A stretch of DNA of 7,697 nucleotides from Pleurocapsa sp. MO_226.B13 (GTDB lineage Bacteria > Cyanobacteriota > Cyanobacteriia > Cyanobacteriales > Xenococcaceae): positions 1 through 7,697 of the forward strand of contig JASJEI010000446.1 of NCBI GenBank assembly GCA_030064795.1, in the 5' to 3' direction. The notes beneath the pieces are model-generated. The model made no database searches. It saw only the letters and a list, made by a program, of their open reading frames with translations, and was not told the origin of the DNA. Positions 1 to 7,697 of the stretch are shown here, one piece after another. Made by a program: the position numbers and the translations under genes. Position 1 is the first letter of the stretch, and the number at the start of each line of letters is the position of its first letter.

Positions 1-1
1 T

Positions 2-595
2 CCTCAAACCCTCAAGGAAACAAATAACCATTTCAACACCAATAATTTTGGTCGTAAGCAAATTGCTATTGCTAAGAGTGCCAAAGGGATCTTAACTAGT
101 TCTGTTGCTTGGACAGACAGCTCAAAAAGCGAAGATACACGAGGCTCTATTACTTTAACCGAACCTTTAAAATCTGAAAATGGAGATATCGCCTTACCTG
201 AAAATTCCTCCATAATAGTTGAAGTTTCTGACTGGGATGATGGGGGATTTGTAACTTTGAGAGCGATCGCCATAGTAGCCAAGAATTCTCAGGGAGAAAT
301 AGTCCAACAAGAAATACCCGAAGATAGCTTATTAATCCGTGGTGAAGACAATCAACCATTAAAATTTGAAACTGAAAATTCAGGTAGTGGCAATTCGGGG
401 ATCGATCAATTATTAAGCAGTGCAGTGAAAAGTAGCGTCAGAAGTTTACCCATTCCTAGAGAAATAGGTTCTGCGGTTTCAAAAACAATCAGTGGATCTG
501 GTTCAAAAGTCGCAAATGAAGGCAAATTTTACTTTATTGAAGCCCAAACTCCTATCCTAGTTTATGTGAACAATTCCATAAGTATCGAGCAATGA
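2..595 (+). CDS. Secreted VirB10/TrbI-like protein, first paralog (5' end outside window)
   Basis: The reading frame is open from the first bases, so the start lies upstream; 197 codons are visible before TGA at 593-595. The protein is a paralog of the next gene. They share WTD(N/S)S, then (I/L)ALPENSS(L/I)IVEVSDWD, GFVTL, LLIR.EDN.PL and a C-terminal (V)YVN..(L/I)SIE(Q/E). The arrangement (a 'G-x-(I/L)-x(4-5)-WTD' entry strand, an L.P..S.(L/I)(I/V).V (small-barrel) segment, a '(I/V)PE.(S/T)LLIR' segment and a terminal short strand) resembles the C-terminal domain of VirB10/TrbI/TraB, the bridging subunit of type IV secretion core complexes. That resemblance is inferred by eye and is not certain. 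The gene overlaps the next by 4 bp (ATGA, 592-595), which suggests translational coupling in one operon. A shorter reading from ATG 257 would cut the conserved core and is not preferred. Confidence 0.75.
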   Translation, partial: PQTLKETNNHFNTNNFGRKQIAIAKSAKGILTSSVAWTDSSKSEDTRGSITLTEPLKSENGDIALPENSSIIVEVSDWDDGGFVTLRAIAIVAKNSQGEIVQQEIPEDSLLIRGEDNQPLKFETENSGSGNSGIDQLLSSAVKSSVRSLPIPREIGSAVSKTISGSGSKVANEGKFYFIEAQTPILVYVNNSISIEQ

Positions 596-1290
596 AAAAT
601 ATTTCAAATCACAAAAAGTTCTATGCCACGGCGATCGTGGTTGTCTTGACAACCACTTCAATTCATAGAGTTTCTGCTCAGATAAGGAGATTTCCCAGCA
701 TAAAAACTACCAATCGACTAAGAGAACTTCAACAAAAACAAATACCCCTAGCTACGACGATCGAAGGAACTATTACAACTCCAATTATCTGGACAGACAA
801 TTCTCAACCAAATGCAACTAGAGCCACAATAATTTTGAATGAACCACTTTTATATTCTGATGGAAGTATTGCCTTGCCTGAAAATTCCTCCTTAATAGTC
901 GAAGTTTCTGACTGGGATAATGCAGGATTTGTAACTTTAAATGCGGTCGCCATTGTCTACGAAAATAGCCGAGGAGAATTTACTCAAAGTACCATTCCTG
1001 AAGGTACTTTACTAATTAGAAATGAAGATAATCACCCTCTAGCATTTAAAACAGAGGAATCAAACGGTGGAAATTCCATAATTGGTGTAATTGCTGATGA
1101 AGTGGTACAAACTGGTGCTAGAAATCTATCTCTTCCTGGTGGGTTAGACTCAGCAGTTTCGCGTAGTTCGCGAACTATTAGAGATAACTCTAGAAGTTCC
1201 AGGAGATCTAACACCGGTGCAGTCTATTCTGTTGAAGAAGAAACCACGGTTTCCATATACGTAAATAGCTTTTTGAGTATTGAAGAATGA
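592..1290 (+). CDS. Secreted VirB10/TrbI-like protein, second paralog
   Basis: This is a complete 232-residue protein. Residues 1-29 form a signal peptide: basic start (MKNISNHKK), hydrophobic stretch around 12-23 and a VSA-Q cleavage site after residue 29. The mature part repeats the pattern of the upstream gene: WTDNS, ALPENSSLIVEVSDWD, AGFVTLNAVAIVYENSRGE, IPEGTLLIRNEDN, a Ser/Arg-rich low-complexity stretch (about 190-207), then TVSIYVNSFLSIEE. DNA of the shared core is still close (191-258 against 871-938, about 62 of 68 bases equal), pointing to tandem duplication or gene conversion. The layout resembles the VirB10/TrbI C-terminal barrel. Classical VirB10 has an uncleaved inner-membrane anchor and a proline-rich arm, both missing here, so if related it is a cut-down periplasmic form. 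ATG is fixed by the ATGA overlap with the gene before, and the gene overlaps the next one the same way. Family assignment is moderate; the CDS call is firm. Confidence 0.85.
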   Translation: MKNISNHKKFYATAIVVVLTTTSIHRVSAQIRRFPSIKTTNRLRELQQKQIPLATTIEGTITTPIIWTDNSQPNATRATIILNEPLLYSDGSIALPENSSLIVEVSDWDNAGFVTLNAVAIVYENSRGEFTQSTIPEGTLLIRNEDNHPLAFKTEESNGGNSIIGVIADEVVQTGARNLSLPGGLDSAVSRSSRTIRDNSRSSRRSNTGAVYSVEEETTVSIYVNSFLSIEE

Positions 1291-2018
1291 AAAATTCATG
1301 TGTTATTGGTGTTGGTGTTTGTGCTGGTCTTGCAGGTGCTTTATTAGTTACTCCTGCTCGGGCAGATGTCAATATTCCTGAAGATATTGCCCAAAAAGAA
1401 ACCATTCCCATCAAAATTATTCCAGGTCAAACTAGTGCCATTAATTTTAAGAATGACGAGCGAGTATCATTTTTAATTTTAAGCGATCGCTCAAAAATAG
1501 TTTATTCTTTAAATGCCCCGACTGACTCTGGCCAGGCTAGGTCTATCTATTTGAGGAACATCGAACCTCTTGATTTCCCTGGTGAAATAACTAGTAATCA
1601 GCCTAATTTATTTGTTGTCGCTATCGACGAGCTTGGAAGACAAAGGCAATATGAATTTGTGGTCGATAACACGCAGCAGCATGACAGTAAAATAAACATC
1701 ATTCCAGAAAAGGAAAAAACCCCAAAAAACAGGGCGAACGTAATTAATACAGAATTGGGGGCAGCTACTCCAGAAGACGTTCGGATCGGCTTGAAATACA
1801 AGTTGAGAAAAGGTGAAGTGTCTCCAGAAGATCCTGTTGCTTTATATACTTCCGAAGCAATTGCTCTGACCCTTAATGGACAAAAAACCTTACTCGCTTT
1901 AGCAGGAGAATTTGATATTCCTCTATCAGTGATCTCCGAATTTGGTAGAACTGGATTAGCTCAAAAAGCCAAATTTAGAATACAATCCGCTGAGCATTGG
2001 CTTCTAATCTTGATTTAA
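1287..2018 (+). CDS. Exported TraK/VirB9 (TrbG)-like protein
   Basis: This 243-residue protein starts inside the stop codon of the gene before (ATGA, 1287-1290). Residues 1-26 are a signal peptide (glycine- and alanine-rich core, TPARA-D cleavage). Residues about 40-125 read as a beta-sandwich in the style of TraK or the VirB9/TrbG N-terminal domain: 'IPIKIIPGQTSAINF', then a 'DERVSFLILSDRS' strand pair, 'RSIYLRNIEPLDFPG' and a '(Q)PNLFVVAIDELGRQRQYEFVV' strand pair, equivalent to the 'TNLivvT...Y.f.l' ending of that family. Residues about 160-230 are different: charged and helical, with 'RKGEVSPEDPVALYTSEA' and 'LAGEFDIPLSVISEFGRTG'. F-plasmid TraK is of similar length. With the two VirB10-like genes upstream, it would make an outer-membrane or periplasmic core-complex partner. 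Its last 44 bp overlap the end of the minus-strand response-regulator gene. The terminal HWLLILI does not look conserved, so the end may have been remodelled by that junction. Confidence 0.8.
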   Translation: MKNSCVIGVGVCAGLAGALLVTPARADVNIPEDIAQKETIPIKIIPGQTSAINFKNDERVSFLILSDRSKIVYSLNAPTDSGQARSIYLRNIEPLDFPGEITSNQPNLFVVAIDELGRQRQYEFVVDNTQQHDSKINIIPEKEKTPKNRANVINTELGAATPEDVRIGLKYKLRKGEVSPEDPVALYTSEAIALTLNGQKTLLALAGEFDIPLSVISEFGRTGLAQKAKFRIQSAEHWLLILI

Positions 2019-2802
2019 AGCAAGAGAAAGTATCACTTACTTGTTCGGTATAAAACCAGTGATTTAGTTGACCAATTATTAGACTCAACTCATTTTCGAG
2101 ATGATCTTCACTTATTTCACGCTCGTATATGCGCTTAGAGACTAATTGCTCATATCTTAGTTCTAATTCTTCGACAAGCGTACATTTATCAGAATCCCCT
2201 TTAAAAAGATAATCGAGCGGATCTTGTCGGTTTTTGGGGTCGCTCTCCCCAAAATGCCACCAACTTCCTTCGATAAAATTGTATTTTTTGGTGCTGGACA
2301 TCCAAGCATTAATTATCTTTGAGGCGATAATTTGGTTTATTTTTAAGATTCTATCCGATTCACTAGGTTGTACAGTACTATCAAAATCAAAAAATAAATT
2401 GGTATTGTTTATATTGTAATTAGGAAAAACATTGTACCCCTCACTCACATTTTGAATTACCGAGCTTAAATTCGTAGGTATGTTTTCTTTAAACAAATAT
2501 CCCTGCGCCCCAGCCCTCATGGATTTTTGAACTAAAAATCGATCATCCACACTAGTAATTATAATTATTTTTATATGAGGATATTTACTAAGAATTTTTT
2601 TGGTAGTAGTCAAACCATCCATAACTGGCATCTGAAGATCGATCAAAATCAGATCTACATCGTGTTGTTCTACTATGGCAATTGCCTCCAAGCCATTACT
2701 AGCAATCCTAAGATCGCTATTTTGAAATCGAGCGCACCCCTGTAACTGTTCGACTAACTTAAATTGACTTGATACTTGGTCGTCAACAATTAATAATTTC
2801 AT
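1975..2802 (-). CDS. Response regulator with intact receiver and unrecognised C-terminal domain
   Basis: A 275-residue protein. The frame can be extended to a TTG at 2814, but ATG at 2802 gives the canonical receiver start MKLLIVDDQ, so it is preferred; a GGA lies immediately before the ATG and no good Shine-Dalgarno is seen for either. Receiver residues (numbering from ATG 2802): acidic pair D7-D8, phosphoacceptor D55 in LILIDLQMPVMDG, switch T83 in IIIITS, and K105 in AGAQGYLFKE. This is a complete phosphorylation site. The receiver ends near residue 125. The last ~150 residues have no NarL- or OmpR-type helix-turn-helix that I can recognise. They contain EGSWWHFGESDP and long charged helices (EELELRYEQLVSKRIYEREISEDHLENELSLI) and look like an interaction or novel output domain. 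The gene converges on the TraK/VirB9-like gene with a 44-bp overlap and diverges from the exported protein at 2884. A cognate histidine kinase is not in the window. Confidence 0.85.
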   Translation of the reverse strand: MKLLIVDDQVSSQFKLVEQLQGCARFQNSDLRIASNGLEAIAIVEQHDVDLILIDLQMPVMDGLTTTKKILSKYPHIKIIIITSVDDRFLVQKSMRAGAQGYLFKENIPTNLSSVIQNVSEGYNVFPNYNINNTNLFFDFDSTVQPSESDRILKINQIIASKIINAWMSSTKKYNFIEGSWWHFGESDPKNRQDPLDYLFKGDSDKCTLVEELELRYEQLVSKRIYEREISEDHLENELSLIIGQLNHWFYTEQVSDTFSCFKSRLEANAQRIVF

Positions 2803-2883
2803 TCCGTGGATCAAATGCTAATTATTTTATTTGATATCTATTTTTCAATATTAAATCAATTATTTCACTAACCATAAATCATT
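2803..2883. promoter_or_regulatory. Divergent intergenic region between regulator and exported-protein gene
   Basis: This 81-bp, very AT-rich gap must hold the promoters of both divergent genes. On the plus strand TTGATA (2831-2836) and TATTAA (2849-2854) resemble -35 and -10 boxes, but only 12 bp separate them, so I do not claim a promoter. It includes the palindrome GATATC (2833-2838). No Shine-Dalgarno precedes ATG 2884. Shared control of both genes from this gap is inferred from geometry only. Confidence 0.4.
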
Positions 2884-4029
2884 ATGAATTTTTCAATTAC
2901 GTATTTCCTGAAAAGTTATAGATTATTAAGCATACTATTAATTTTTTACTACTTTTTTGATGAACCGGCGATCGCACAAAATGTCGAAGTCAAGTTATTA
3001 CCAAATTTCAACGAAATTTCATTTCAAGACTTCGATCCCCTTAATGAAGGGGGAGTGATAGGAACTGAGTTCAATGAACTTATCGGTCGAGATATCTCAC
3101 GTCAGTTTTTTGCAGGAGATCATGTTGAAGATGTTTTACAGCTAGGAGATCTTGAAGCCTCTCTAGCCCCTCAAGAGTTTACTCTAAACGATATTAACGA
3201 TCGTTTACTAGAACCTAATGACTTTTCAACATTACCCCTCAGCGAGTTTTCCTTGATTGAAGAACAGACACTCTTAAATTTAGTAGAGGCTGTTCCAGGA
3301 CTAGGACAGGAGCTTGCTGAAGATATTGAGCCAATCAATAAGCTACTAGAACAAGAGGGGATTTCAACAGATGTTGACCTCAAAACCCTTGTTAAAGATC
3401 GCTCAATCGCCAACCTTCAATTAGGATCTATTGACTTGGAGAATTTTTCGGTGGATTCTATTCCTAATCTTACAAATACCGAACTGGCAAATTTTGAGAA
3501 CTTTGAGACTAGTGTAATTTCAGAAGTTCCCGGTCTATCAGCAGTCCCTCTTGGTAATTTTCCCAACGATATTCCTCTTTCTGGTTCACTTATCGCTAGA
3601 GTTGATTTTGTTTGGGGTGGAGCAGAAAGTAAACGTAATCGGACAATCAGCGGTTCGTATGTTGAAGGTTTTCAAGTTCGGTGTGATTCAAATTGTGAAT
3701 ACCTAGAATTAGACGACATTGAAAATATTGGTTCAGCTATACAATTGCCATTTGAAGGAAGGCAATGGATTGCTGGACGAGAACACTGGGTAAAAGGTGG
3801 GACTGGATGTTTTGCTGGTGGGCGCGAACCTACGGGTATTCATCCTTTCGGTCCCACCTTTAAACTCGTTCTCTGGAGGACAGATGAAACTACTGATACG
3901 GCCACAGTGGTAATGTTTTTCAACATCAAAACGTCTTGTGGAGAAACTCCCTATATCATTGGCCCAATACCTTTTCCTCTTGGTTTAGTTCGAGTTAATG
4001 ATTATATATTTGTTGGCATAGGAGGCTGA
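2884..4029 (+). CDS. Exported protein of unknown function, four-cysteine C-terminal domain
   Basis: A 381-residue protein. Residues 1-31 are a signal peptide: K10 and R13, hydrophobic 14-25, cleavage at PAIA-QN. HIP1 lies in this part of the gene. Residues about 40-220 are acidic and leucine/phenylalanine-rich, with loosely repeated short motifs, notably VPGLGQEL (near 136) and EVPGLSAVPLGNFP (near 215), and recurring 'L..F/L.dF' steps; this looks like a repetitive spacer. Residues about 235-381 form a distinct domain with C267, C271, C309 and C352 (two possible disulfides), GREHWVKGGTGC and a beta-rich end (KLVLWRTDETTDTATVVMFFNIKTSC). I do not recognise a named family or catalytic motif. 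Neighbouring conjugation-like secreted proteins suggest a role in the cell envelope or secretion machine, which is inference. No good ribosome-binding site is visible. Confidence 0.8.
   Translation: MNFSITYFLKSYRLLSILLIFYYFFDEPAIAQNVEVKLLPNFNEISFQDFDPLNEGGVIGTEFNELIGRDISRQFFAGDHVEDVLQLGDLEASLAPQEFTLNDINDRLLEPNDFSTLPLSEFSLIEEQTLLNLVEAVPGLGQELAEDIEPINKLLEQEGISTDVDLKTLVKDRSIANLQLGSIDLENFSVDSIPNLTNTELANFENFETSVISEVPGLSAVPLGNFPNDIPLSGSLIARVDFVWGGAESKRNRTISGSYVEGFQVRCDSNCEYLELDDIENIGSAIQLPFEGRQWIAGREHWVKGGTGCFAGGREPTGIHPFGPTFKLVLWRTDETTDTATVVMFFNIKTSCGETPYIIGPIPFPLGLVRVNDYIFVGIGG
4021..4025 (+). promoter_or_regulatory. Shine-Dalgarno GGAGG for the 47-codon ORF
   Basis: This is a perfect GGAGG with a 6-nt gap to ATG 4032. 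It is the best ribosome-binding site in the left half of the window and the main support for the small ORF. Confidence 0.7.
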
Positions 4030-4031
4030 AA

Positions 4032-4175
4032 ATGGGAAAATATCAATCAGATAAAAACAAGCTAGCATTCATTCATCAGCATGAAAATCTTCAAACTGAA
4101 ACTAGCTCGGCCAAGTTTTGGCATCAAACAAAATGCTTAATTAAACATTTATTGTCAAAAATATCTTTCAAGTGA
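4032..4175 (+). CDS. Small basic 47-residue ORF, possibly a truncated gene
   Basis: ATG at 4032 lies 6 nt after a perfect GGAGG (4021-4025), which itself lies in the last codons of the preceding gene, so the ORF is probably cotranscribed and well translated. It gives MGKYQSDKNK..., with a His- and Lys-rich second half (KFWHQTKCLIKHLLSK) and no signal peptide or known motif. The TGA stop at 4173-4175 is the first triplet of a strong hairpin that begins an insertion-sequence-like segment. Two readings are open: a genuine small protein, or the N-terminus of a longer gene cut by that insertion. The quality of the ribosome-binding site argues that the start is real. Confidence 0.5.
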   Translation: MGKYQSDKNKLAFIHQHENLQTETSSAKFWHQTKCLIKHLLSKISFK

Positions 4176-4341
4176 CAGGTACACCGCCTTGCAAAGGCGG
4201 TGCCTGCTGTCACCGCATTCCGCGGTCAGCACCCCGCGCCTAAGCAAACGAGGCTTCAAGCCCTTAGCTTTAGCTAGTTGACCAGTCTAAGTTCTTCGGA
4301 ACTACGTTATTTAAGTTACTTGTTTTTGACGCTCCCCTCCG
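4173..4341. mobile_element. Transposase-less remnant resembling an IS200/IS605-family end
   Basis: There is no ORF, and GC content is higher than in the flanks. The segment opens with a compound hairpin: TGACAG (4173-4178) pairs with CTGTCA (4207-4212), and inside it CACCGCCTT (4182-4190) pairs with AAGGCGGTG (4194-4202) around a 3-nt GCA loop. Next is ACCGC/GCGGT (4212-4216/4222-4226), then a tract with GAGGCTTCAAGCCC, then AGTTC-TTCG-GAACT (4290-4303), a classic UUCG tetraloop hairpin. It ends in TTTTTGACGCTCCCCTCCG directly before the next ATG. Imperfect subterminal hairpins without terminal inverted repeats are typical of IS200/IS605 elements and their MITE-like derivatives, and these end sequences look familiar from cyanobacterial copies. 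That family call is from memory. A structured RNA is the alternative. Confidence 0.5.
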
Positions 4342-4755
4342 ATGAGAATTTTATTAGTTGAACACGATCGCGACATCTGCGAATTACTTAATGAAGTTTT
4401 GAAAACCCAACAATATGTAGTCGATATAGCAACCAATGGGCAGTCGGGATGGGGTTTTATTGAGGTTGGTAATTATTATGACCTAATAATTTTGGATACA
4501 ACACTACCAATAATTGATGGCTACAGCCTTTGTCGTCAACTGCGAACCAGAAAATATGATCTGCCTATTCTGATGACAACAACAAAAGATACTTGCACAG
4601 AAAAAGTTGAATGCTTTAATGCTGGTGCTGATGACTGTATAACTAGACCATTTAAACTAGAAGAACTACTGGCTCGTATTCGGGTTTTAGTCACTTCTCC
4701 CGACGAGTCGCGCAAACGTACAGCGCGGGCTTCTCAACTTTCCTCCCCGACGTGA
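4342..4755 (+). pseudogene. OmpR-type receiver domain without DNA-binding domain, probably truncated
   Basis: A 137-residue ORF. It aligns to an OmpR/PhoB-type receiver: MRILLVEHD, D52 in YDLIILDTTLPIIDG, the PILMTTT switch region with T80, AGADDCITRPF and LEELLARIRVLV. Two usually invariant positions differ: the second residue of the acidic pair is H8 (VEHD instead of VEDD), and the lysine before PF is R102. Full-length relatives are about 220-250 residues with a winged helix; here only a Ser/Arg-rich tail (SPDESRKRTARAS...) follows. The coding sequence of that tail (from about 4692) resembles insertion-sequence end DNA, and the TGA stop (4753-4755) is part of the motif TGACATTCTCC. There is no ribosome-binding site: CTCCCCTCCG precedes the ATG. 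I read it as a receiver remnant caught between insertion-sequence ends. A stand-alone, degenerate but functional receiver cannot be excluded, because the receiver frame is intact. Confidence 0.65.
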
Positions 4756-4804
4756 CATTCTCCAGACACCGAATCAAAGATTACGGTGCTGGCTTCCATT
4801 CTCC
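4753..4804. mobile_element. IS200/IS605-like end with strong hairpin
   Basis: The segment starts with TGACATTCTCC. A hairpin follows: CCAG (4762-4765) with CTGG (4789-4792), bulged A4766, CACCG (4767-4771) with CGGTG (4784-4788), AATC (4772-4775) with GATT (4779-4782), bulged A4783 and an AAA loop. The octamer CATTCTCC occurs on both sides of it (4756-4763 and 4797-4804). TGACAT.CTCC followed by a hairpin is, as I recall it, how many cyanobacterial IS200/IS605 right ends read on the complementary strand. No transposase ORF is attached. It is not a convincing terminator, because no T-tract follows. Confidence 0.5.
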
Positions 4805-4902
4805 CGTGCGATCATCGTGATAACTATGTTCAATAAAGTATAAAATCCTACCAGGGACGGAAGAGGGTTTAATTTGGATGTTTTATCTGTCGCCAACATT
4901 TA

Positions 4903-4939
4903 TTGATTTGGTATTGCAAATCAATCAACTTGATTGATT
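4903..4939. repeat. Overlapping TTGATT dyads
   Basis: Two perfect inverted repeats overlap. TTGATTTG (4903-4910) and CAAATCAA (4917-4924) form an 8-bp dyad with a 6-nt spacer. AATCAATCAA (4919-4928) and TTGATTGATT (4930-4939) form a 10-bp dyad around a single C at 4929. The shared arm means only one hairpin can form at a time, or that several half-sites can bind a dimeric protein. No gene starts immediately downstream on either strand. An operator or a partition or origin-proximal binding site is possible; function is not shown. Confidence 0.6.
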
Positions 4940-5026
4940 AGACCGAAAATTAGTTTATTTGCTTGGCGTTGGTGAGTGCGATCGCTATTTATTCCGAATT
5001 ATACTTGATTTATGCTACCTAGTCGT

Positions 5027-5037
5027 TGACATCCTCC
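5027..5037. repeat. Second copy of the TGACAT(T/C)CTCC motif
   Basis: TGACATCCTCC here matches TGACATTCTCC at 4753-4763 in 10 of 11 bases, same orientation, 274 bp apart. It is followed by CGCCACTAAAC with no equivalent strong hairpin. This may be the decayed end of another insertion-sequence copy, so the intervening DNA (with HIP1 at 4978-4985) may be a fragment between two such ends. Confidence 0.4.
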
Positions 5038-5116
5038 CGCCACTAAACACTCCTAACGTCGCGCTAATGTTACGATTTATAATCAAATACTTTAAAACTC
5101 CGCTTTTTTCAAAAAT

Positions 5117-5176
5117 AAGTCAAACAACAAGCTGGTTAATTTGACTTGTTTGCAGTACAATCATAACCAACCAGCT
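5117..5176. repeat. Interleaved inverted repeats
   Basis: AAGTCAAA (5117-5124) is complementary to TTTGACTT (5140-5147), and AGCTGGTT (5130-5137), lying in the loop of the first, is complementary to AACCAGCT (5169-5176). The pairs interleave, as in a pseudoknot or two alternative hairpins. Just to the right GAACACCG (5214-5221) pairs with CGGCGTTC (5243-5250) at 7 of 8 positions. No coding explanation is visible. Confidence 0.5.
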
Positions 5177-5267
5177 AATTGAATCTATTCGGTTTTATTT
5201 AGTTAAAGACCACGAACACCGCAGGAACTTTGGCGAGTGAATCGGCGTTCAGAAGTATCAATTGTTC

Positions 5268-5423
5268 CAATCAAAAAGTTTAGGAGAATGCCGTGAAATA
5301 GTTATTATCCCAATACATCCTACCAACCTCATGACTGAGAGGAAACAATCAAAAAGTTTAGGAGAATGCCGTGAAATAGTTATTATCCCAATACATCCTA
5401 CCAACCTCATGACTGAGAGAAAA
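5268..5423. repeat. 78-bp tandem direct repeat, two copies
   Basis: Copy 1 is 5268-5345 and copy 2 is 5346-5423, directly abutting. I find one difference (G5342 against A5420), so 77 of 78 bases match. Each copy carries AGGAGAATGCCGTGA and TTATCCCAA; the latter matches the DnaA box TTATCCACA at 7 of 9 positions, which is weak. The unit is 26 codons long, so an ORF from a TTG at 5262 reads through both copies as a repeated 26-residue block starting QSKSLGECREIV and ending at 5447, but it lacks a credible start and looks incidental. Near-identity indicates a recent duplication, or a constrained plasmid element such as long iterons or a partition site. Confidence 0.9.
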
Positions 5424-5442
5424 ATTTCTGTCGAGGTTCTAG

Positions 5443-5485
5443 ATTAAAACGCAGAAAGTGCGAAAGCTCTTTTTGGGGTTTTAAT
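5443..5485. repeat. Inverted repeat ATTAAAAC / GTTTTAAT
   Basis: Perfect 8-bp arms at 5443-5450 and 5478-5485 with a 27-nt spacer; with a one-base bulge the match extends outward (AG before the left arm, CCT after the right). The right part of the spacer has a TTTTT run (GCTCTTTTTGGGG). It could be a weak terminator-like or protein-binding dyad at the left edge of the presumed replication control region. Confidence 0.45.
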
Positions 5486-5496
5486 CCTATATGAGT

Positions 5497-5571
5497 TGAT
5501 TGTATCAAGCATTTTATCTGTTTGACAAGTTTTGACGGATAAATTTTGCTGCCTGAAACTACATACAATCA
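5497..5571. repeat. Inverted repeat TGATTGTAT / ATACAATCA with tandem TTTGAC
   Basis: Perfect 9-bp arms lie at 5497-5505 and 5563-5571. Between them TTTGAC occurs twice exactly 10 bp apart (5521-5526 and 5531-5536), one helical turn, which suits a protein contacting one face of the DNA. TACAAT (5564-5569) in the right arm is a 5/6 match to a -10 box, without a -35 at the right distance. The location upstream of the rep leader fits an operator or origin site; this is inference. Confidence 0.45.
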
Positions 5572-5593
5572 TCAAACCCAGACAGCAGAAAGG

Positions 5594-5635
5594 AAGGCAT
5601 CATCAATGATGCTTTGTAAATAAATATTAAATTTA
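5594..5635. promoter_or_regulatory. Short hairpin followed by AT-rich tract
   Basis: GCATCAT (5597-5603) and ATGATGC (5606-5612) form a tight hairpin with a 2-nt loop, extendable outward by a G-T and two A-T pairs (5594-5615). It is followed by an almost pure A/T stretch (5617-5634). This may be a weak terminator or promoter area, or an AT-rich unwinding element of a plasmid origin. The sequence alone does not decide. Confidence 0.4.
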
Positions 5636-5648
5636 GTCGATGAGAAAA

Positions 5649-5944
5649 AGGTCGTTACCTGCTAGATCTTGTTTGTTTTCCAAAGAGTTTGCTTATCCTG
5701 TTGTACTCACAACCTCGAAATTCTCAATTGCTACTTGAGAAAACAGCTAACTCCCCATCACATATATATTTGTCATTATGTACGATTTTAGAAAAACTAA
5801 CAAGATCGAAGATTGTTCTGCTTCGATTCGCGCATGTCTCGTCACCAAACCCAGTTCAGGTTTCAGAGACGACTGCGAAGGTAGTTTTTAATCATTAATT
5901 AGCAGGCAACGACCTCAAAAAAATCCAAAAATTTGGGAGTCGTT
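5649..5944 (+). promoter_or_regulatory. Structured rep leader with mutually exclusive stems
   Basis: Nested complementary arms fill this leader. The outer stem pairs AGGTCGTTACCTGCTA (5649-5664) with 5900-5915, 15 of 16 positions. Directly inside, 5665-5680 (GATCTTGTT-T-GTTTTC) pairs with 5791-5807 (GAAAAAC-T-AACAAGATC). Then a nested hairpin: TTCGC (5827-5831) with GCGAA (5875-5879), GTCTC (5836-5840) with GAGAC (5866-5870), and AAACC (5847-5851) with GGTTT (5859-5863). The heptamer GTCGTTA occurs in the outer left arm (5651-5657) and again at 5939-5945, overlapping the ribosome-binding site. AACGAC(C)TC (5908-5916) can therefore pair either with the far upstream arm or with GAGTCGTT (5937-5944), which would hide part of the Shine-Dalgarno. 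This geometry suggests translational control of Rep, for example by a counter-transcript RNA. Function is inferred. Confidence 0.6.
5935..5939 (+). promoter_or_regulatory. Shine-Dalgarno of the replication gene
   Basis: GGGAG lies 7 nt before ATG 5947 and fixes the start. Its last three bases fall in the 3' arm of the possible hairpin 5908-5916/5937-5944. Confidence 0.75.
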
Positions 5945-5946
5945 AA

Positions 5947-7697
5947 ATGAATAACAATAAAGTGATGCGGAATGCGTTACAGTCGAGCGATAGAAAGCAT
6001 CAAAAAGAATGGACAAGATCTGGTGTCGATCCTCAAATAATCAATCTCAACGTAGTCTCGCTAAAAGAAGGGGAAGCATACGAGCGTCTGCTTTATGGGT
6101 TGAACAGAAGCGAACGACGCAATGATGGTAGATTGAGAGATAAATGGCTCAAAAGATATGGTCACCTAGAGTATGGTGGTTGGTGGGTTAGTGGTGTAGA
6201 TGTTCTAACGGAGTCAGATGCGGAATGGGGGCAGTTCAAACCAAACAAAGCTTATCAGGAGCGGGAAAAACCAAAAGGGTTTGGTCTTACCCAAAAGACA
6301 AAAAACAAAACTTTAAAATACGAAGCTCCGCCAAAAGTACCGACAGAAATATTTGCTCTTAAGGTCAATCTTCCGATCTGGTTCCAGATCGCCAACCGTT
6401 ACGATGTAGAACTTCCAGAAGATATTATAGTCACAGATGACGGTAGGGCATTAGGTTTTTGGGCGTGGGTAATAGCCAATCCTAAAATTCCCGTCATCAT
6501 CACCGAGGGAGCCAAAAAAGCCGGGGCTATTTTAACGGCAGGTTATGTAGCGATCGCCCTGCCTGGAATCTATAACGGTTATCGACAAGAAAAAGATGAT
6601 TACGGCAACAAAATCGGACTGCCACATCTAATTCCTCAACTAAAAGCATTCGCTCAAAAAGAGCGAGAAATAATTTTTGGTTTTGATAACGATACCAAAT
6701 CAAAAACTGTCAAGAATGTCAGAACGGCGATCGCCAAGACAGGAAAGCTATTCGCCCTTTTAGGTTGCAGGGTATCGGTTATTAGCTGGGACTATCCTGA
6801 AAAGGGAGTAGACGATCTAATTGCAGCAAGAGGTTTTGATTGCTTTGACGACCTCTATAAATCCCGTATTTCCCTCTCCAAATTCAATCTGGCATCTATA
6901 CTCGATCTAGCCAAATATAACCCGTTAAAAATCAGCCAACGTTATTTAAGTGACAGTCTGTCCCCTCCTGATTATGCTCAAATAATTGCACTGCGATCGC
7001 CAAAAGGAACGGGTAAGACTGAATGGCTAGCTCATATGGTGCAAAGTGCGATCGTTCAAGGTAAGCCAGCATTAGTCATCACCCACCGAATCCAGTTAGC
7101 TAAGGCTTTATGCTCTCGATTTGGCATCGACCATATTGAAGAAATTAGAAATTCTGAAACTGGCGGGATACTCGGCTACGGCTTATGTATCGATTCACTA
7201 CACCCTAATTCAATGGCTCATTTCAATCCCGAAGATTGGAGCGAAGCTGTAGTAATTCTCGATGAAGTAGAACAGGTAATCTGGCATATGCTAGATAGTT
7301 CTACTTGCCAAGACAATCGAATCGCTATCATTGAAAACTTTCAAAGATTGCTCAGAATAGTTATTAGCACGGGGGGCAAAATTTATCTTAGCGATGCTGA
7401 CTTGTCCTGTATTGCCATTGATTATGTTTCTAAACTGGTTGATGTCCCTGTCAATATTTGGGTAGTTGAGAACATTTTTGGCTCGAACCAAAAACGCCAA
7501 TTAGTTAGCTACTCTGGCAGTGACCCCCGCGAGTTGGTTACATCTTTGGTGACAAAAATCACTCGTGGAGAAAAAGTTTTAGTTCATACGACTGGACAAA
7601 AAGCTAGAAGTAGATGGGGATCTATCAATCTCGAATCATACCTCAAACAACAGTTTCCACACCTAAAAATACTGAGGATAGACCGAGATTCAGTATC
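5947..7697 (+). CDS. Plasmid replication protein, CyRepA1/DUF3854-like, TOPRIM plus helicase-type ATPase (3' end outside window)
   Basis: The frame is open from ATG 5947 to the window end (583 full codons), with no stop. Residues about 35-95 carry a segment I associate with this family: EAYERLLYGLNRSERRNDGRL, KRYGHLEYGGWWVSGVD. Residues about 130-295 are TOPRIM-like (DUF3854): IITEGAKKAG with E187, GFDND with D247 and D249, and KGVDDLIAARG with D289/D290, a metal-binding set typical of primases. From about 340 a P-loop ATPase follows: Walker A RSPKGTGKT (350-358), 'VITHRIQLAKAL' as a helicase motif Ia-like segment, and Walker B VVILDEVEQV with D439-E440. The combination suggests a primase-helicase initiator that opens and primes the plasmid origin in the cytoplasm; relatives exceed 900 residues, so perhaps a third or more is missing. 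The upstream repeat-rich region fits an origin or copy-control locus. Three HIP1 sites lie in the gene. The family call is by motif memory, and I am fairly confident of it. Confidence 0.9.
   Translation, partial: MNNNKVMRNALQSSDRKHQKEWTRSGVDPQIINLNVVSLKEGEAYERLLYGLNRSERRNDGRLRDKWLKRYGHLEYGGWWVSGVDVLTESDAEWGQFKPNKAYQEREKPKGFGLTQKTKNKTLKYEAPPKVPTEIFALKVNLPIWFQIANRYDVELPEDIIVTDDGRALGFWAWVIANPKIPVIITEGAKKAGAILTAGYVAIALPGIYNGYRQEKDDYGNKIGLPHLIPQLKAFAQKEREIIFGFDNDTKSKTVKNVRTAIAKTGKLFALLGCRVSVISWDYPEKGVDDLIAARGFDCFDDLYKSRISLSKFNLASILDLAKYNPLKISQRYLSDSLSPPDYAQIIALRSPKGTGKTEWLAHMVQSAIVQGKPALVITHRIQLAKALCSRFGIDHIEEIRNSETGGILGYGLCIDSLHPNSMAHFNPEDWSEAVVILDEVEQVIWHMLDSSTCQDNRIAIIENFQRLLRIVISTGGKIYLSDADLSCIAIDYVSKLVDVPVNIWVVENIFGSNQKRQLVSYSGSDPRELVTSLVTKITRGEKVLVHTTGQKARSRWGSINLESYLKQQFPHLKILRIDRDSV

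Follow-up and report, generated by a model that had tools for sequence, protein, structure and literature searches.

A conserved RNA structure in the leader of a cyanobacterial CyRepA1-type replication gene suggests plasmid copy number control by an RNA switch

The CyRepA1 family of replication proteins was named for the plasmid pSYSA of Synechocystis PCC 6803. According to the available text of PMC9978351, an abundant antisense RNA of ~150 nt is directed against the ssr7036 transcript upstream of the pSYSA rep gene and begins 166 nt before the rep start codon (positions 32481 and 32647). RNase E and the ssr7036 transcript are tied in the same text to the plasmid copy number, ColE1-like priming is proposed, and the CyRepA1 locus has already been made into a vector. 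For pSYSX, the accessible part of PMC10899382 describes how abundant antisense RNAs overlap the beginnings of the CyRepX1 and CyRepX2 genes, and their pairing with the Shine-Dalgarno (SD) sequence and the start codon is proposed. Outside the cyanobacteria, the staphylococcal RepA_N plasmid pSK41 has RNAI, which is antisense to the leader ahead of the initiation region; a stem-loop forming upon its binding is proposed to sequester the ribosome-binding site. In pT181, the SD-containing hairpin has a proximal arm to which a pre-emptor can pair instead, the balance being shifted by an antisense RNA (both in the available sections of PMC5703833). Replication genes like CyRepA1 are widespread among cyanobacteria: of the 388 genomes searched in the order, 289 have a match at E 1e-30 or better. 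In the sources at hand, pSYSA is the one CyRepA1 plasmid whose RNA control has been studied, and such control is proposed for CyRepX.

The window, i.e., the whole stretch of DNA analyzed here, comprises 7,697 nt of Pleurocapsa sp. MO_226.B13 (assembly GCA_030064795.1, contig JASJEI010000446.1, positions 1 to 7,697, forward strand). The following features were assigned to the rep gene and its leader:

5947 to 7695, plus strand: rep gene of the CyRepA1 family (NF042913, PF12965), its 3' end cut by the window end
5935 to 5939, plus strand: SD sequence GGGAG, read from the sequence
5649 to 5664, plus strand: 5' arm of the long stem P1 (the "pre-emptor"), from an inverted repeat, the minimum-energy fold, and covariation
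5900 to 5915, plus strand: 3' arm of P1, common to the SD hairpin, on the same three grounds
5665 to 5681, plus strand: 5' side of an inner extension of P1 that pairs with 5791 to 5807, from an inverted repeat and the minimum-energy fold
5722 to 5740, plus strand: central hairpin P2 (TCTCAA, loop, TTGAGA), from pairing in all ten leaders
5908 to 5944, plus strand: alternative SD-masking hairpin P3, exclusive with P1, from a local fold
5489 to 5648, plus strand: upstream block conserved in sequence (TTTGACAAG/TTTTGACGG repeats, TTTTGCTGC..CAGCA), from alignments A2 (five leaders) and A6 (seven leaders, L080 being kept out because of an insertion)

The window Rep, a protein truncated by the window end, scores 200.7 bits against NF042913, just above the curated cutoff of 200, and carries DUF3854 (PF12965, 172.8 bits). 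The leader contains an ORF of 69 amino acids with a TTG start (5689 to 5898), and a search of the whole window with Rfam 15 at the gathering score gave 0 matches. We found no description of this leader in the open-licence literature, and the available part of PMC10079941 contains no leader RNA.

The sequence-only reading of this DNA knew of no described case of such control for CyRepA1-type plasmids; pSYSA with its asRNA1 is one, antisense-RNA copy control having been published for it (PMC9978351, available text). The ssr7036/asRNA1/slr7037 region of pSYSA resembles the present locus in having a CyRepA1 rep gene behind a long leader, and three of four SD bases are paired in the fold of the pSYSA leader. 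However, the pSYSA antisense RNA overlies the small gene ssr7036, and a competing stem that frees the rep SD is not described for pSYSA in the sections of PMC9978351 at hand. The pSYSA leader (L005) gave no match at E 10 to an nhmmer profile of the upstream block and the first 130 nt of five leaders. A second control RNA with no sequence match to that of pSYSA would suggest that, across this family of replicons, antisense logic has widely emerged or diverged.

In the window, the observation made in the sequence-only reading is confirmed. The arms AGGTCGTTACCTGCTA (5649 to 5664) and TAGCAGGCAACGACCT (5900 to 5915) are complementary at 15 of 16 positions, and only ~0.002 such pairs are expected per 600 nt (by arithmetic with uniform bases). 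AACGACCTC is located at 5908 to 5916 and its competing partner GAGTCGTT at 5937 to 5944, the latter overlapping the SD, and the word GTCGTTA is duplicated on both sides as that reading had claimed, with an equally long shared word in 22 of 1000 shuffles. The nested stems are also present in the minimum-energy fold (5665 to 5681 with 5791 to 5807, 15 pairs; 5827 to 5840 with 5866 to 5879, 12 pairs), and in the homologs the interior of P1 is mostly different in sequence from that of the window. The leader from 5649 to 5915 folds with -74.5 kcal/mol (z, -5.2; none of 200 shuffles was equally good). For the 321 nt from 5640 to 5960, the folding z is -4.23 on the plus strand and -4.67 on the minus strand, and since the minus strand folds comparably, the strand is not told by folding alone. 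The short competing pair on its own is unremarkable, as 20 inverted repeats, this one included, are listed for a stretch of 601 nt. The P3 hairpin of the window pairs AACGACCTCAAA with TTTGGG-A-GTCGTT; compared with shuffles of the tail, its energy was equaled by 8 of 400 and its number of pairs by 100 of 400.

Homologous leaders were sought from a starting set of Rep relatives gathered from genomes and plasmids, among which four leaders (L001, L020, L025, and L026) could be aligned with that of the window. When 388 genomes of the order were searched with R1, a model built on the sequence of the upstream block alone, 41 matched at E 0.01, mostly weakly, and seven of these were used; the 34 others reached at most 24 bits each, and one of them (G378) had 6.3 bits on closer look. 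This search added L078, L079, and L080, which are three copies in one genome (G251), and the remote leaders L081 and L082 (25 bits each; nhmmer E values of 1.8e-4 and 1.9e-11, respectively). In total, nine homologous leaders were found, seven close and two remote, giving eight close leaders and ten overall with the window. All seven carrier genomes belong to one family, 7 of whose 27 genomes match at E 0.001. A second model (R2) recovered the same seven and one partial match (G223, 60 nt) when run on the 388 order genomes; in 386 genomes of the phylum, a set that overlaps with that of the order, it recovered a single one of the seven and again the G223 partial match. When leader DNA was compared with 72,556 plasmid records, the window query (5500 to 7697) matched within rep only, and neither the L020 nor the L079 leader matched any record. 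In viral contigs, a single Rep fragment matched, weakly, and one upstream-block pattern gave nothing.

The leaders of the near Rep relatives L012 (71%), L021/L004, L015, L018/L002, L022, and L024 were considered and rejected as being of a different type (profile match of at most 3 bits), and they are not part of the structure counts; L023 is without a leader, as the contig ends there. The P1 counts exclude L081 and L082, whose 5' arms could not be brought into register (L081 has no P1). The eight close leaders are 220 to 306 nt long and have a mean column identity of 48%.

The leader is a conserved RNA structure in these close relatives. The minimum-energy fold of each of the eight close leaders has a closing P1, P2 inside it, and some hairpin at the SD, the form of which deviates in the window, L020, and L026, and in all eight the 3' arm of P1 ends 29 to 39 nt before the start codon. 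Counting only pairs between the first 45 nt and the last 120, P1 has 15 pairs in the window, 26 in L001, 32 each in L020, L025, and L026, 29 in L078, 22 in L079, and 30 in L080; by the same count there are 11 P1-type pairs in the remote leader L082 and 0 in L081. RNAalifold on a plain MAFFT alignment of the eight leaders, in which the 3' arm of L025 is misaligned, returned only P1 and the SD hairpin, with 10 of 18 pairs compensated. With the arms registered by hand, 84.4% of 96 P1 cells are paired (4 of 500 shuffles were as high) and 5 of 12 pairs carry changes in both partners (18 of 500 did as well); 2 of 500 shuffles, and none of the slid versions, attained the covariation score. This register was derived from the folds and is thus biased toward structure, and the sequences are related. 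The compensatory changes that the sequence-only reading had proposed to look for in homologous leaders are therefore present in P1 across the eight. In P2, all 48 cells are paired in the ten leaders (eight distinct rows), 4 of 6 pairs are compensated (40 of 500 shuffles reach 4), and 9 cells have both partners changed, a number that none of 500 shuffles attained. A folding z below -3 was obtained for nine of the ten leaders on the sense strand, the exception being L020 (z, -1.57), and for five of ten on the antisense strand. Computation thus shows the conserved folds P1 in eight leaders and P2 in ten, together with a recurring SD hairpin.

The P2 loops have CAA at their 3' side in nine of the ten leaders, the window being the exception. 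The UUG of the antisense P2 loop may resemble the U-turn loops that occur in enterobacterial antisense RNAs.

Upstream of rep, P1 provides the long-range pre-emptor pairing that is a feature of pT181 and pSK41; it covaries in eight leaders and is missing in L081. The leader is likely a countertranscript-controlled translational attenuator of the pT181/pSK41 logic. In undisturbed rep mRNA the 5' and 3' arms would pair as P1, which would hold the 3' arm off the ribosome-binding site, and Rep would be produced. The nascent leader would be bound by a short antisense RNA that is transcribed from the minus strand within the leader and spans P2 and the 5' arm; the released 3' arm would then close the SD-masking P3, and Rep synthesis would drop as plasmid copies increase. 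The locus differs from pSK41 in Rep family and host phylum, in the span of P1 (~270 nt), and in that the antisense RNA is a prediction. In pT181, control is mainly by transcription termination at stem-loop IV (PMC5703833, available sections), whereas here the sequence after 5944 is AAATGAATAACAATAA, and a U-run is absent behind the SD hairpin (5945 onwards). We give about even chances to the reading that the leader RNA controls the replication of a CyRepA1-type plasmid by acting as such a two-state translational attenuator under an antisense RNA. Three steps of this reading are inferred: the freeing of the SD by P1 in the cell, the existence of the antisense RNA, and its action through P1. Such a control RNA would supply defined arms, and mutating them should alter the copy number.

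The effect of P1 on the SD was assessed by scrambling the 5' arm in silico. The predicted probability that the SD is unpaired in the window is 0.60 with the intact arm versus a mean of 0.25 with scrambled arms (none of 30 scrambles was as high), and clear effects were also seen in L001 (0.54 versus 0.29; 1 of 30 as high), L079 (0.78 versus 0.31; 0 of 30), and L080 (0.41 versus 0.26; 0 of 30). The effect is slight in L025 (0.25 versus 0.23) and L026 (0.21 versus 0.13) and is reversed in L020 (0.39 versus 0.43) and L078 (0.17 versus 0.26). Of the remote leaders, L081 shows no effect (0.25 versus 0.22; 16 of 30 as high), and in L082 the value is lower with the intact arm (0.42 versus 0.58). The claim that the long stem frees the SD thus holds in prediction for six of the eight close leaders, clearly in four, but not for L020 and L078 or for the two remote leaders.

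The other half of the proposed switch, masking of the SD by the competitor beside it, folds in the window but is weak across the homologs when measured against tail shuffles. Pairs between the 3' arm and the segment after the SD total 64 in the ten leaders, compared with a shuffled mean of 57.3, and 116 of 400 shuffled totals were as high. The local probability of an unpaired SD lies under the shuffled mean in all ten leaders, but the masking is unremarkable for each leader, 10 to 100 of 200 shuffles being equally masked. A word of the 5' arm is repeated beside the SD beyond chance in the window (GTCGTTA; 22 of 1000 shuffles), L020 (GTTTTCTG; 20 of 1000), and L025 (GTTGTTTCTTC; 0 of 1000); in the other seven of the ten leaders, a shared word was not beyond chance in 1000 shuffles. 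With so weak a competing pairing when all leaders are set against shuffles, the switch counts as plausible and not as demonstrated. Given these mixed accessibility and shuffle results, the P1/P3 switch appears to be a good model for the window and some of its relatives and is unproven as a rule.

An antisense-controlled leader could also do without the P1-P3 switch, P1 and P2 then being the folded target of the antisense RNA, and the block to Rep coming from direct pairing, from RNase cleavage, or from a constant SD hairpin that is opened in another way (e.g., by translation of a leader peptide or by a pseudoknot). The SD is predicted to be masked in both states in L025, L026, and L078, as this reading would have it. 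Among the seven close relatives there are six in which the SD can be masked by a CCAGA-type hairpin adjoining P1, and not by the 3' arm alone; this hairpin overlaps P1 by at most two bases in L001, L020, L026, and L078 to L080. Direct antisense pairing over the SD and the start codon is also what the CyRepX authors propose in the available part of PMC10899382. However, P1 clearly alters the predicted accessibility of the SD in the window, L001, L079, and L080, and we regard a leader with no such switch as rather unlikely.

Both of these readings call for an antisense RNA, for which two minus-strand features are candidates:

5775 to 5803, minus strand: candidate antisense promoter, -35 TTGTTA (5803 to 5798), spacer of 17, -10 CATAAT (5780 to 5775), from a scan for promoter-like sites
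5597 to 5612, minus strand: weak terminator-like hairpin that could end the candidate antisense RNA (one found, 0.9 expected by chance)

The scan found 3 promoter-like sites where 3.0 are expected by chance, and between 5100 and 6300 a single terminator-like site was found, which lies on the minus strand. The RNA predicted from the candidate promoter would extend leftwards across P2 and the 5' arm. In all ten leaders, a minus-strand hexamer resembling a -10 box, with 5 or 6 of its 6 positions matching, lies 29 to 49 nt past P2: CATAAT in six, TATAAT in L025, AATAAT in L020, and TAGAAT in L081 and L082. The best -35 matches across the leaders are 2 to 4 of 6. A -10-like box turned up in 8 to 42% of shuffles, depending on the leader, and the distance range was fixed after the hits had been seen. 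Because of this shuffle rate, the post hoc range, and the relatedness of the leaders, the recurring box, as an antisense RNA would need, is suggestive only. The distance of the candidate promoter from the start codon is similar to that of the pSYSA antisense start as given in the available text of PMC9978351. With CyRepX1 and CyRepX2, the locus would share antisense RNAs at a cyanobacterial rep start, and control of Rep translation is proposed for CyRepX; however, the Rep type is another one, and the CyRepX RNAs begin ~25 nt inside rep and cover the SD directly (PMC10899382, accessible part), whereas the candidate promoter here is ~170 nt upstream of the start codon. The switch is, at about even confidence, the likeliest working model, and it would be new as a variant in cyanobacterial plasmids, not as a kind; the locus suggests, and does not prove, that an RNA switch sets the plasmid copy number.

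The transcript might instead be a replication primer, as proposed for the pSYSA ssr7036 mRNA, the fold then serving primer formation or RNase E processing and not Rep translation. Priming by the upstream transcript is proposed by the pSYSA authors in the text of PMC9978351 at hand, and the upstream DNA block is conserved together with the leader. Clear matches to this block in the genome searches are confined to one family, and it may be promoter and/or origin DNA of the leader module. A conserved RNA structure within the block was considered and is unsupported (2 of 13 pairs compensated, with an unfavorable covariation term). However, the 3' arm of P1 ends 29 to 39 nt before the start codon in all eight close leaders and the SD hairpin recurs, which indicates translation over a primer role, and we consider the primer reading improbable. 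That the inverted repeats are a DNA-level element, i.e., origin or protein-binding hairpins with an incidental RNA fold, is very improbable: the minus strand folds well too and the upstream block is conserved as sequence and not as structure, but the arm sequences change with pairing kept, where conservation of the sequence itself would be expected of a DNA-binding site, and the G-U pairs in P1 are of the sense type in 26 cases versus 12 of the antisense type (arm limits taken from the sense fold).

The leader and the Rep protein do not strictly travel together, since the nearest Rep to that of the window, L012 (71%), has a different leader. The Rep of L078, behind the same kind of leader, has 29% identity to the window Rep. 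The Rep of L082 matches the CyRepA1 part (helicase) with 369 bits and has no DUF3854 match, and the protein of L081 has no Pfam or NCBIfam match; the relatives listed for it, 12 of 101 plasmid records, include PriCT-2 proteins. In L080, from oriented position 1818 onwards, the leader is followed by a stopped frame of 24 codons that resembles the L078 Rep start and then by a different Rep frame, possibly the trace of a gene exchanged behind a kept leader. We tentatively propose a new cyanobacterial plasmid RNA family, a portable copy-control cassette (upstream block, P1, P2, SD hairpin, and antisense promoter) that would be exchanged between replicons in front of different initiators, with a copy of the 5' arm beside the SD competing for the 3' arm in the window, L020, and L025. 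The proposed modularity draws on few loci, one of which (L081) is without P1.

Some further observations concern the surroundings of rep. Two proteins with a response-regulator receiver domain, the only domain that Pfam gives in each, are encoded nearby at 1975 to 2814 (minus strand) and 4342 to 4755 (plus strand). The ORFs at 592 to 1290, 1287 to 2018, and 2884 to 4029 have no Pfam or NCBIfam match, and the ORF at 2 to 595 looks similar by eye to that at 592 to 1290. A 78-bp unit is present twice in tandem at 5268 to 5423 (98% matches), ending ~225 nt upstream of the 5' arm, and could represent iterons or a recent duplication. In place of the leader, L012 has three near-identical 22-nt units with CTCTAGTATCCCCCGAC, and L006 has a CATCCCCCGATAA repeat array; both were noted by eye, and by that inspection the repeats look like an iteron-like type within the same Rep family.
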